A stretch of 64,000 nucleotides of DNA from Nonomuraea deserti. GTDB lineage: Bacteria; Actinomycetota; Actinomycetes; Streptosporangiales; Streptosporangiaceae. Below the pieces are notes generated by a model, which did no database searches, was not told where the DNA came from, and worked only from the letters and a program-made list of their open reading frames with translations. This document shows, piece by piece, positions 24,902 through 50,716 of the stretch (position 1 is its first letter; every line of letters begins with the position of its first letter). Position numbers and translations under genes: made by a program. Location of the stretch: NCBI RefSeq assembly GCF_004348685.1, contig NZ_SMKO01000021.1:1-64000 (forward strand), given 5' to 3'.

Positions 24902-24981
24902 TGCGCGAGGACGGAGTCGAACCGCCACAGCCGAAGCGCCCGGTTTACAGCCGGGTGGGCTCCCCGATGCCCAGCTCGCGC
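24902..24981 (-). tRNA. tRNA-Tyr(GTA)
   Basis: 80 nt. Perfect acceptor GCGCGAG/CTCGCGC, D stem GGGC/GCCC, anticodon arm CCCGG-CTGTAAA-CCGGG with anticodon GTA. The long variable region (about 12 nt with a small TTCG-capped stem) is proper for bacterial tRNA-Tyr, and the T arm is GGCGG/CCGTC. A73. CCA is not encoded. Confidence 0.9.
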
Positions 24982-24996
24982 GTGGGGAAATCGTGG

Positions 24997-25070
24997 TCGG
25001 CCCGGCAGGAGTCGAACCTGCGACGCCCGGTTTGTAAGACCGGCGCTCTGACCACCTGAGCTACAGGCCG
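24997..25070 (-). tRNA. tRNA-Val(TAC)
   Basis: 74 nt. Acceptor CGGCCTG/CGGGCCG with one G-U, D stem GCTC/GAGC, anticodon arm CCGGT-CTTACAA-ACCGG with anticodon TAC, T arm GCAGG-TTCGACT-CCTGC. A73 suits valine. CCA is not encoded. Confidence 0.9.
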
Positions 25071-25083
25071 TGGTGCGACCGCG

Positions 25084-25158
25084 TGGCCCCAGCAGGATTC
25101 GAACCTGCAACGGACCCGGCTTCGTAGGCCGGCGCTCTCTCCATTGAGCTATAGGGCC
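25084..25158 (-). tRNA. tRNA-Arg(ACG)
   Basis: 75 nt. Acceptor GGCCCTA/TGGGGCC, D stem GCTC/GAGC, anticodon arm CCGGC-CTACGAA-GCCGG with anticodon ACG, T arm GCAGG-TTCGAAT-CCTGC. The variable loop is seven bases. CCA is not encoded. A T6 run lies between this gene and tRNA-Glu. Confidence 0.9.
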
Positions 25159-25176
25159 GTGAAAAAATAGTGTCAG

Positions 25177-25249
25177 CACTCCGTACCGGATTTGAACCGG
25201 TGTTCTCCCGGGTGAAAGCCGGGCGTCCTGACCGCTAGACCAACGGGGC
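25177..25249 (-). tRNA. tRNA-Glu(TTC)
   Basis: 73 nt. The anticodon arm CCCGG-CTTTCAC-CCGGG with anticodon TTC and the D region GTCTAGCGGTCAGGAC match glutamate tRNAs. The T arm is ACCGG-TTCAAAT-CCGGT. The acceptor stem GCCCCGT/ACGGAGT carries a C-A mismatch and a G-U pair. CCA is not encoded. Confidence 0.85.
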
Positions 25250-25274
25250 CTTCCCCGAAACGCGTCGAGGTTCG

Positions 25275-25347
25275 TACGTCCGGCGGGATTCGAACCCGCA
25301 ACACCCGGCTCCTGAGGCCGGCGCCTCTCCCGTTGGGCTACGGACGC
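25275..25347 (-). tRNA. tRNA with Leu anticodon (CAG) but short variable loop
   Basis: 73 nt. Acceptor GCGTCCG/CGGACGT, D stem GCC/GGC, anticodon arm CCGGC-CTCAGGA-GCCGG with anticodon CAG, T arm GCGGG-TTCGAAT-CCCGC. The anticodon is for leucine, yet the variable loop has only five bases (GTGTT), whereas bacterial tRNA-Leu is class II with a long arm. Isotype is therefore uncertain. CCA is not encoded. Confidence 0.8.
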
Positions 25348-25351
25348 GTGG

Positions 25352-25423
25352 AGCCGCAGCGGGGGCTCGAACCCCGTCCTGCTGGGTGGAAGCCAGCTGC
25401 CTTACCCGTTCGGCCTCTGCGGC
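25352..25423 (-). tRNA. tRNA-Gly(TCC)
   Basis: 72 nt. Perfect acceptor GCCGCAG/CTGCGGC, D stem GCC/GGC, anticodon arm GCTGG-CTTCCAC-CCAGC with anticodon TCC, T arm CGGGG-TTCGAGC-CCCCG, U73 as usual for bacterial glycine tRNA. CCA is not encoded. It is the first tRNA of the array, four bases from the next. Confidence 0.9.
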
Positions 25424-47384: not shown

Positions 47385-47936
47385 ATGCGCAAGATCATCA
47401 ACTCGACCTACATCAGCCTCGACGGCGTCATCGAGGACCCGGCGTGGACGATGCCGTACTTCGACGACGAGGCCTCCGCCTTCGCCGGCGAGCAGACGGA
47501 CTCGGCCGACGCGCTGCTGATGGGCCGCCGTACCTACGAGGGTTTCGCCGCCGCCTGGCCCAACCAGGACGAGAGCGACCCGAGCACCGGCGCGGCCTAC
47601 TTCAACAACGTCAAGAAGTACGTCGCCTCCACCACCCTCACCGACCCGGAGTGGAAGAACAGCGAGGTGCTGCAGGGCGACCTCATCGAGGCGGTCACCC
47701 GGCTCAAGGCCCAGGAGGGCAGGAACATCCTCATGTACGGCTACGGCACGGTCACCCACGCCCTGGTCAAGGCGGGCCTGGTCGACGAGGTGCGGTTCTG
47801 GATCACCCCCGTGTTCGTGGGGGGCCCGTCGATCTCGGCGCCGCTGAGCGACGTCCGGACCACGCTGAACCTGGCCGCCACCAAGGTGATGAAGAGCGGC
47901 GTGATCATCGCGACCTACACCTCGGCCACCCAGTAG
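47385..47936 (+). CDS. RibD C-terminal/dihydrofolate-reductase-fold protein
   Basis: 183 residues, similar in layout to the gene at 29939: KIINSTYISLDGVIEDP, DALLMGRRTYEGFAAAWP, VKKYVASTTLTD and the nucleotide-binding GRNILMYGYGTVTHALVKAGLVDEV. AGGAGGAA precedes the ATG. The substrate is unknown. Directly upstream of the DUF1062 leader promoter, whose transcript starts after this gene. Confidence 0.88.
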   Translation: MRKIINSTYISLDGVIEDPAWTMPYFDDEASAFAGEQTDSADALLMGRRTYEGFAAAWPNQDESDPSTGAAYFNNVKKYVASTTLTDPEWKNSEVLQGDLIEAVTRLKAQEGRNILMYGYGTVTHALVKAGLVDEVRFWITPVFVGGPSISAPLSDVRTTLNLAATKVMKSGVIIATYTSATQ

Positions 47937-47948
47937 GGGCACGGCCGG

Positions 47949-47986
47949 AAAACCGGTTGAGTTTTCCTCAGGCGTTCCGGTAGGTT
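47949..47986 (+). promoter_or_regulatory. WhiB7/WblC-like promoter of DUF1062 gene
   Basis: AAAACCGGTTGAGT at 47949-47962 includes the -35 hexamer TTGAGT (47957-47962) preceded by an A+T-rich AAAA-CCGG element, the arrangement described for WhiB7/WblC-dependent promoters. TAGGTT (47981-47986) follows at 18 bases as -10. Transcription would start near 47993, giving a leader of about 184 nt. The motif assignment is from memory of the WhiB7 consensus. Confidence 0.6.
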
Positions 47987-48026
47987 GCCCGCGACCCGTC
48001 GCAGTGAGGACAGAGGACAGAACCGC

Positions 48027-48053
48027 GTGACCCCGCCTGCTCTTCAGACCTGA
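48027..48053 (+). CDS. 8-codon upstream ORF (MTPPALQT) in DUF1062 leader
   Basis: GTG at 48027 with AGAGGA about nine bases upstream opens a frame MTPPALQT followed by TGA. Its last codons and stop lie inside one arm of the leader's long inverted repeat. Short ORFs like this one, followed by pairing elements, allow ribosome-stalling attenuation of antibiotic-responsive genes. Its translation is not proven. Confidence 0.5.
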   Translation: MTPPALQT

Positions 48054-48167
48054 CACGTCTTTCCGTTCACCTTCAGGCCGGCCCTAACGCCGGCTCTGCC
48101 GGGCTGCCCGTGTGCGCCCGGTTCTCCAGCGATTGAGGCCGCGCGTAATCGGCCTCGTGTCAGGTCT
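48046..48167 (+). promoter_or_regulatory. Structured attenuator-like 5' leader of DUF1062 gene
   Basis: AGACCTGACACG (48046-48057) pairs perfectly with CGTGTCAGGTCT (48156-48167), enclosing three hairpins: GCCGGC/GCCGGC (48077-48094), CCGGGC/GCCCGG (48099-48121) and GAGGCCG/CGGCCTC (48135-48156). The first arm holds the end of the 8-codon ORF and the second lies just before the ribosome site (AGAGAG) and ATG. Long-range pairing and the third hairpin share base 48156. The layout suits translational control by a ribosome paused on the small ORF. Confidence 0.6.
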
Positions 48168-48176
48168 AGAGAGTTC

Positions 48177-48737
48177 ATGTCTTCACAACCTCATACTGTG
48201 CTGCCCTGGGTCGTCCGTCGGACCAGGCTGCCTCTGCTGTCGTTGCGGTGCGTGGCCTGCCGGTCGGAGTCGGCCACCACCGGCGAGGGCAGGTTCCGCG
48301 TCAACGCCAACGCCAAGCTGCTGGACGTGTGGCTGCTGGTCCGCTGCGTGTCCTGCGATCGGACGAGCAAGCTCACCGTGCACGAGCGGGCGCCGGTCAG
48401 ATCCTTCGATCCGGCCGAGCTCGACGGCTACCACGCCAACGATCCGGAGCTGGTGGCCTCCAGGCTGCTGGATCCAGTGCTCGCCCGGCGCAACCGCGTC
48501 ACCCTGGACTGGAAGGGGGCCTGGCGGCTGGACGCCCCGTCGGCATGGCTCGACGAGGGGTGGCCGGTTCGGGTGGAGGTCGTCTTCGAGGATCCGGTGC
48601 CGGTGCGCCCGGACCGGCTCATCGCGCAGGGGCTCGGCCTCAGCAGGAACGAGGTGCTGCGCCGGATCAAGTGCGAGATTCCGCTCCGCCGGACGACGAG
48701 CGCCGGGTTCGCCTTCACCGTGATGGCCGGGCACTAG
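48177..48737 (+). CDS. DUF1062 zinc-ribbon protein
   Basis: 186 residues. Two CxxC pairs (Cys25/Cys28 and Cys57/Cys60) form a probable zinc ribbon. The rest includes GLGLSRNEVLRRIKCEIPL near the C-terminus, typical of DUF1062. The biochemical role is unknown. The preceding promoter and leader suggest induction by translation inhibitors, so a part in ribosome protection or antibiotic tolerance is a testable guess. ATG start follows AGAGAG. Confidence 0.82.
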   Translation: MSSQPHTVLPWVVRRTRLPLLSLRCVACRSESATTGEGRFRVNANAKLLDVWLLVRCVSCDRTSKLTVHERAPVRSFDPAELDGYHANDPELVASRLLDPVLARRNRVTLDWKGAWRLDAPSAWLDEGWPVRVEVVFEDPVPVRPDRLIAQGLGLSRNEVLRRIKCEIPLRRTTSAGFAFTVMAGH

Positions 48738-48958: not shown

Positions 48959-49810
48959 TCAGCCACGCTTGTCCAGTCCCTCGCGATCGAGCGCCGCCCG
49001 GATCTGGCTGAGCCACTCCGTGCCCAGCCGGCGCCCGTTCGGCAGCTGGTCGTCTCGATCCCAGCGCCACGTTGTGACCATCGCCAGCACGAGGGTCCGG
49101 CACTCGCGCAGCAGGTCCTGATCGACACCCGGATAGTGCTCACTGACGTCTTCGGGCGCATGGGCGAGGTCGAACTCGACGGGCCCACGGCAACACGTCT
49201 CAAGGTCGATGAACAGCAGCCCCTTCCTCGTGGTGAGCACGTTGCCCGGGTGCGGCTCGCCGTGCAGCAGTTGCTCGGCGCCGCCGCGCTCGCCGATCAC
49301 TCGTCTCAGGCGCCGTAACGTGTGGCTGAGCAGCTCCCGGTCCGCGTCGGCGAGCGCCGGAGTGTGCTCGCGGTTCGCCAGGAGTCGCTGAGCCTGCTCG
49401 ACGCGATCCGTGAAGTGCGGCGTCGGCATCTCGATCTTGCGCATGCCGGCATGCAGCCGCTCGAGCGCATGGGCGTAGCCGGCGGGCGAGATCTCCTGAA
49501 AGGTCACGGGCTCGTGGTAGGTCCACAGCGTGACCACGAAGCCGTCACGCTCGTGGACGCGTGGCTCCACTCGAGGCTCCAGAGCAGCCACAGGGCACCC
49601 GAACGCGGCGAGCCGCTGAGCAAGCTCGACTTCGAACCGCGCGACCTGATGCGCTGCAGGTGCCACCCTGGCCAGGACGTCACAAGGCAGTAGACGCAGG
49701 GTGAGCTTGTTCGAGTCGTGAAGAACGATCGCGTCGTCGGCCGCCAGGCCAAGTGATGAGGCCGTCGACATGGCCGCGGCCACCGCACGCGCGACCTCTG
49801 ACGCCTCCAT
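48959..49810 (-). CDS. Aminoglycoside phosphotransferase-family kinase
   Basis: 283 residues, APH/choline-kinase fold. Brenner-type motif HGEPHPGN at 183-190 has Glu185 at the catalytic Asp place, a variant seen in the family, and the metal motif is IDLET (Asp202, Glu204). The substrate may be an antibiotic or a metabolite; nothing decides. Its N-terminal lobe has AADDAIVLHDSNKLTLRLLP, short of the usual glycine-rich loop. Confidence 0.85.
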   Translation of the reverse strand: MEASEVARAVAAAMSTASSLGLAADDAIVLHDSNKLTLRLLPCDVLARVAPAAHQVARFEVELAQRLAAFGCPVAALEPRVEPRVHERDGFVVTLWTYHEPVTFQEISPAGYAHALERLHAGMRKIEMPTPHFTDRVEQAQRLLANREHTPALADADRELLSHTLRRLRRVIGERGGAEQLLHGEPHPGNVLTTRKGLLFIDLETCCRGPVEFDLAHAPEDVSEHYPGVDQDLLRECRTLVLAMVTTWRWDRDDQLPNGRRLGTEWLSQIRAALDREGLDKRG

Positions 49811-50154: not shown

Positions 50155-50716
50155 ATGCCGATCTACTCGATGAGCGTCTCGGTGGACGGCTTCATCACCG
50201 ACCGCGAGGGCTCGTTCGGGTGGACGGCTCCTGACGAGGAGCAGTTTCGTTTCAGCATCGCCCAGATCCGCGAACTCGGCGGCTGTCTTTGCGGCCGCAG
50301 GCTCTACGAGACCATGCTGCCGTGGGAGACGGCCGTTGATGCGCTACCACGAGCTCGGGGCCGTGTTCGCCGACATCTGGTGCGCTATCCCGAAAGTCGT
50401 CTTCAGCCGCACGCTCGACAGCGTCCAGGGCAACGCCCGGCTCGCCTCGGCGTCGGTGGCCGAGGAGGTCGCCGCGGCGCTCGACGCGACCGCCAGGGAC
50501 GTCTCGATCGGTGGCGCCGGCCTGGCCGCGGCAGCGATCGAGCTCGGCCTCGTCGACGAGATGCGCATGTTCCGCAATCCGATCGTGGTCGGTGGCGGCA
50601 CGCCCTTCCTGCCGCCGGTCACCGAAGAGGTTCGGCTGGACCTGATCGAGACCAGGACGTTCGGCTCGCGCGTGATCTACGAGCGCTACGCGCGCGCCCG
50701 CGGCGACTCGGACTGA
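50155..50716 (+). pseudogene. Frameshifted RibD/DHFR-fold protein
   Basis: Starting at ATG 50155 the frame encodes MPIYSMSVSVDGFITDREGS and continues through CGRRLYETMLPWETA. Near 50335-50345 homology switches to the +1 frame (MRYHELGAVFADIWCAIPKV, then IGGAGLAAAAIELGLVDEMR and VIYERYARARGD), ending at 50716. Together the two frames make one normal RibD_C-type reductase of about 187 residues. A one-base insertion or two-base loss explains it; a sequencing error cannot be excluded. Third member of this family in the window. Confidence 0.8.

Follow-up and report, generated by a model that had tools for sequence, protein, structure and literature searches.

The window, i.e., the whole stretch of DNA analyzed here, comprises 64,000 nt of Nonomuraea deserti (contig NZ_SMKO01000021.1, positions 1-64,000, forward strand). 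It contains a gene for a DUF1062 protein of 186 aa (48177..48737, forward strand), preceded by a promoter of the WblC/WhiB7 type and a 5′ leader with a short upstream open reading frame (uORF). The predicted protein has two Cys pairs, a helical middle and a C-terminal LGLSRNEV helix pair. Directly downstream, on the opposite strand, lies a gene for an APH-type phosphotransferase (48959-49810, reverse strand; Pfam E = 4.1e-16), and this pair is flanked by two genes for RibD C-terminal (dihydrofolate-reductase-like) domains (47385-47936 and 50336-50716). The window also holds an array of six tRNA genes (24902-25423, reverse strand).

The promoter (47948..47986, forward strand) is composed of GAAAAC (47948-47953), a gap of 3 bp (CGG), the −35 element TTGAGT (47957-47962), an 18-bp spacer and the −10 element TAGGTT (47981-47986). 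It strictly matches the consensus published for WblC of S. coelicolor (GAAAWY, 3 bp, TKGMNN, 16-19 bp, TANNNT; PMC7157823), in agreement with the WhiB7/WblC-like promoter and TAGGTT −10 proposed in the initial annotation. The consensus occurs once in the whole window, versus 0.00 occurrences expected from 100 shuffles, while the 10.7-Mb genome contains three such sites and one match to a reversed control pattern. The three sites precede DUF1062, whiB7 itself and a GNAT acetyltransferase gene. The element upstream of the −35 is kept at orthologous loci: the strict promoter was found in 59 of 79 DUF1062 orthologues versus 0 of 1284 background windows, and with one mismatch allowed these counts rise to 71 and 2, respectively.

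WhiB7/WblC, with an AT-hook RGRPRK tail, is encoded in the same genome (G000:C156:4214-4354, locus L191). The strict promoter of whiB7 (G000:C156:4853-4891, reverse strand; loci L193 and L191) lies ~500 nt upstream of the gene, a spacing that would fit autoregulation and a long leader. The third strict promoter (G000:C251:5110-5147, reverse strand) ends 6 nt ahead of the start codon of a GNAT-like acetyltransferase gene, named from its sequence (L192:1550-2104, reverse strand) and apparently a leaderless candidate for the WblC regulon. Because this promoter directly precedes a start codon, a leader does not always seem to be needed.

Transcription begins 7-8 bp past the −10 at WblC promoters (PMC7157823), and with this spacing the DUF1062 leader would span ~183 nt (47994..48176, forward strand), close to the folded leader of ~184 nt first described. 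The leader is kept in 80 loci, namely the window and 79 orthologues with protein identities of 72-94%. A ribosome site, GAGGAC (48013..48018, forward strand), found in the same place in most leaders, sits 8 nt upstream of the uORF GTG ACC CCG CCT GCT CTT CAG ACC TGA (48027..48053, forward strand), which encodes MTPPALQT. Alignment of the orthologous leaders, proposed earlier as a check, recovered an MTPPAL-like or MPAL uORF in all 80: in 46 the peptide is MTPPAL, most others add two residues to MTPPAL, a few are one-residue variants, and two carry MPAL with a shifted start (L040, L058). The 8-codon uORF of the initial annotation is thus present, but its 8-residue form belongs to a minority, most relatives having the 6-residue peptide. 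In the MTPPA-type uORFs, codons 2-5 differ only synonymously (ACC/ACG/ACA, CCG/CCC, CCT/CCC, GCT/GCC/GCA) and codon 6 encodes Leu in 72 of 76. The stop alternates between TAG, TAA, or a TGA further on, and on the gene tree the 6- and 8-residue forms have replaced each other no fewer than 18 times, with MTPPAL retained throughout. Its presence in every leader and the purely synonymous changes in codons 2-5 point to selection on the encoded peptide. MTPPAL did not appear in any of 5.39 million open papers covered by a full-text search.

A perfect 12-bp repeat (AGACCTGACACG/CGTGTCAGGTCT at 48046-48057/48156-48167) forms the core of a 17-bp consensus helix, P1, which runs from the Ala and Leu codons in the uORF as far as the AGAGAG that precedes the DUF1062 start. 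The 5′ arm of P1 (48040..48056, forward strand) comprises the end of the uORF and the bases just after it; as originally noted, the uORF (48027-48053) ends within one arm of the repeat (48046-48057). The 3′ arm (48157..48173, forward strand), supported by covariation and by the fold of the window's leader, contains the DUF1062 ribosome site AGAGAG (48168-48173). This site had been described as abutted by the repeat, but since CTCT/AGAG prolongs the repeat over AGAGAG, the 3′ arm covers it. Further helices on the same strand are P2 (48064-48067/48128-48131), spanning 48064..48131 and enclosing P3 (48076-48082/48089-48095) and P4 (48099-48107/48114-48121), and the P5 hairpin GAGGCCG/CGGCCTC (48135..48156).

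The leader of the window folds at −91.8 kcal/mol (z = −4.96), and none of 200 shuffles folded as low. Across 46 aligned leaders, 96.3% of cells are paired in the whole fold and 10 pairs are changed on both sides, in 29 cells, a score reached by none of 500 shuffles; with the partner slid by 1-3 columns as a control, pairing drops to 31-45%. The pairings proposed initially are therefore conserved in orthologous leaders. In P1, 93.8% of cells are paired and 4 of the 17 pairs are changed on both sides. The corresponding share is 96-99% in P2, P3 and P4, with double changes at four P3 pairs and none in P2 or P4, and 98.8% in P5, where two pairs show double changes. The P1 pair 48049-48164 changes from C-G to U-A in five sequences; on the gene tree it underwent at least 12 state changes and is mispaired in only 1 of 75 rows, and the pair 48081-48090 underwent at least 14 with 2 of 75 rows mispaired. 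A stricter test for independent pairs supports one or two pairs on a tree that is too poorly resolved, with few supported branches.

In the window's genome, the covariance model of the leader matches one place, besides its opposite strand and one chance-level match, and strong matches in 297 genomes of the class precede DUF1062, besides one partial match to a split relic. Leaders in front of other genes were not found in these genomes, where all matches are DUF1062 loci, the split relic or a few weak, chance-level hits. The relic (G067:C31:152243-152346; L123, also L078 and L167) adjoins a transposase-like ORF and lies 11 kb from a DUF1062 gene without its first ~30 codons, the probable result of a transposon insertion. 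No conserved gene partners of DUF1062 were detected among 69 loci, the most shared neighboring open frame being present at 17 of them and the runner-up at 6; given this varying neighborhood, the persistence of the leader is not due to synteny alone.

Several variants of the leader occur. A compact variant keeps P1 and the uORF ATG ACG CCN CCY GCT CTN (MTPPAL, in one case MTQPAL) and retains a hairpin stack around GCCGAC/GTCGGC, while the P2-P4 region is reduced, P5 and the P4 domain being lost; a few of these loci are without the promoter just upstream (e.g., L139 and L141). Another type combines the uORF MTPPALSA with CTCTCTC opposite GAGAGAG. In three Micromonospora loci (L009, L013, L046), the leader end including the ribosome site seems to be duplicated before the DUF1062 start (e.g., AGGTCTAGAGATCAGGTCTAGAGAG), so that one copy of the site would stay outside P1.

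A further group of DUF1062 proteins, with 50% identity, is termed Streptomyces-type here since most plasmid records that carry such a protein come from Streptomyces. Their leaders are unrelated in sequence and share the same design: a WblC-type promoter with an 18-bp spacer precedes 10 of 12, the uORF encodes MYTx, and GTACACC..GTGAGA in the uORF region pairs with TCTCAC..GGTGTAC just before the GTG start. As few pairs vary, it is the fold and the conservation, not covariation, that support this structure. One copy (L154) is without an MYTx-like uORF. The corresponding model is likewise specific; its two extra matches (L198:302-460 and L199:320-465) precede what look like decayed DUF1062 copies.

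The protein itself matches PF06353 with E = 3.6e-35 (122.1 bits versus a cut-off of 23). Its invariant Cys pairs, C25/C28 and C57/C60, suggest a zinc ribbon, and it is on these pairs that the zinc-ribbon call of the initial annotation rests. AlphaFold models reached a pLDDT of 85 for the window protein and 92 for a Streptomyces-type homologue. Foldseek searches yielded no significant match for the former in the PDB and viral models or for the latter, higher-confidence model in the PDB, and a DUF1062 sequence profile did not match the PDB either. Placing LGLSRNEV on the GxxxSR motif of S4 domains, hhalign reported P = 0.0037 in one comparison and a probability of 8.9%, a weak likeness of the C-terminus to an S4 RNA-binding domain; no fold in the PDB matched. 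DUF1062 is also present in proteobacterial records, with ~28% identity in Salmonella, and was named in only two of the 5.39 million open papers searched in full text.

With the end of its uORF overlapping the arm that masks the ribosome site, the leader has the layout of a translational attenuator. We infer a two-step translation-stress unit, in which WblC-driven transcription is combined with erm-like translational attenuation; we regard this reading as likely. When translation is inhibited, WhiB7/WblC would accumulate and, together with the main sigma factor, activate the promoter. In the RNA, pairing between the uORF end and the 3′ arm of P1 would hide the DUF1062 ribosome site. A ribosome stalled at a codon of the MTPPAL uORF would cover the 5′ arm, P1 would open and DUF1062 would be translated, whereas P1 would re-form behind ribosomes passing the uORF freely. 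The internal hairpins would chiefly serve to draw the two arms of P1 together. When the bases covered by a ribosome were blocked in silico, the predicted openness of the ribosome site increased moderately in most leaders tested; in the window's own leader it rose only from 0.17 to 0.24 for stalls at codons 5-7, with 0.71 for codon 3. Counting against this mechanism are this moderate opening, the low number of independent pairs supported on the tree, the compact-variant loci without the promoter, the Streptomyces-type copy without the uORF, and inner hairpins whose sequence conservation exceeds what a pure spacer would require. The uORF, the element upstream of the −35 and the pairings, whose loss from orthologous loci would have spoken against the initial annotation, are all conserved there.

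One alternative is that the ribosome on the uORF selects between a terminator and an anti-terminator, with the ribosome-site pairing being incidental. Such transcription attenuation is documented for whiB7/wblC (PMC11550727) and has been proposed for ABCF genes in Streptomyces, are5sc among the systems concerned (PMC12421871), and the strong GC hairpins P4 and P5 ahead of DUF1062 could be read in this way. However, the leader showed no hairpin with a U-run behind it, the sole terminator-like match falling in the promoter, and the compact variant loses P5 yet keeps the ribosome-site helix. Because no terminator was found, control is more likely to be translational than transcriptional, and we consider transcription attenuation unlikely. 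A ligand- or protein-binding RNA, whose internal domain would bind a small molecule or, in an autoregulatory manner, the DUF1062 protein and in which the uORF would be secondary, appears more doubtful still. It would account for the high sequence conservation of the internal loops and of helices P2-P5, and the two Cys pairs and possibly nucleic-acid-binding C-terminus of the protein would suit it. However, the compact and Streptomyces-type leaders have either a different or a smaller inner domain while uORF and arms stay, which argues against a ligand-binding core; moreover, the uORF is constrained at the peptide level, and no relevant Rfam family matched the leader at the gathering or a relaxed threshold. 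That the promoter alone regulates, the leader being a constitutive low-translation device with the uORF as a by-product, is very improbable, for although the GNAT gene shows that such a promoter can directly precede a start codon, the uORF peptide is kept despite changed stop codons and even a moved start, and Streptomyces-type genomes have another leader, unrelated to this one but built on the same plan.

Under the favored two-step unit, the conservation of the arrangement across many actinomycetes indicates that the DUF1062 protein is probably synthesized upon inhibition of ribosomes, for instance by antibiotics. A family without known function thereby gains a concrete role to test, i.e., expression under ribosome blockage, and its leader offers a ready-made sensor of translation inhibitors. 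That leaders alike in design yet unrelated to each other precede the gene in two actinomycete branches of the family suggests that it matters for DUF1062 to be tightly coupled to ribosome stalling. Our guess, by analogy, is that the product would probably be a ribosome- or RNA-directed stress factor, since ribosome-associated factors, among them Hsp15, HflX, and ArfB, abound in the WhiB7/WblC regulon (Lee et al. 2020, PMC7157823). More tentatively, and with considerable doubt on our part, DUF1062 could represent a new class of ribosome-directed antibiotic-tolerance factors that came independently under two unrelated uORF attenuators, the MTPPAL leader of Streptosporangiales and relatives and the MYTx leader of Streptomyces-type genomes, and that may bind its own leader.

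Translational attenuators of the erm type employ a leader peptide and a ribosome site hidden in a stem. The DUF1062 leader resembles them in that the codons of a short uORF form one arm of the helix hiding the main gene's ribosome site. It differs in its single long-range helix around several hairpins, in a uORF of only 6-8 codons whose stop lies inside the arm, in its WblC-type promoter and in serving a family without assigned function. Very short uORFs are shared with the attenuator leaders of are5sc and tiaA in S. coelicolor, which respond to ribosome-targeting drugs and of which are5sc is WblC-regulated (PMC12421871), whereas terminator/anti-terminator folds are described there and no terminator was found in the DUF1062 leader. 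The same difference separates it from the whiB7/wblC leader, a uORF attenuator that uses a Rho-independent terminator (reviewed in PMC11550727) and likewise senses translation inhibition through a uORF in actinomycetes. As to the WhiB7/WblC regulon, DUF1062 is not named as a member in the main text of PMC7157823, but its promoter fits the consensus including the 3-bp gap and the 18-bp spacer, and WhiB7 is present in the genome.
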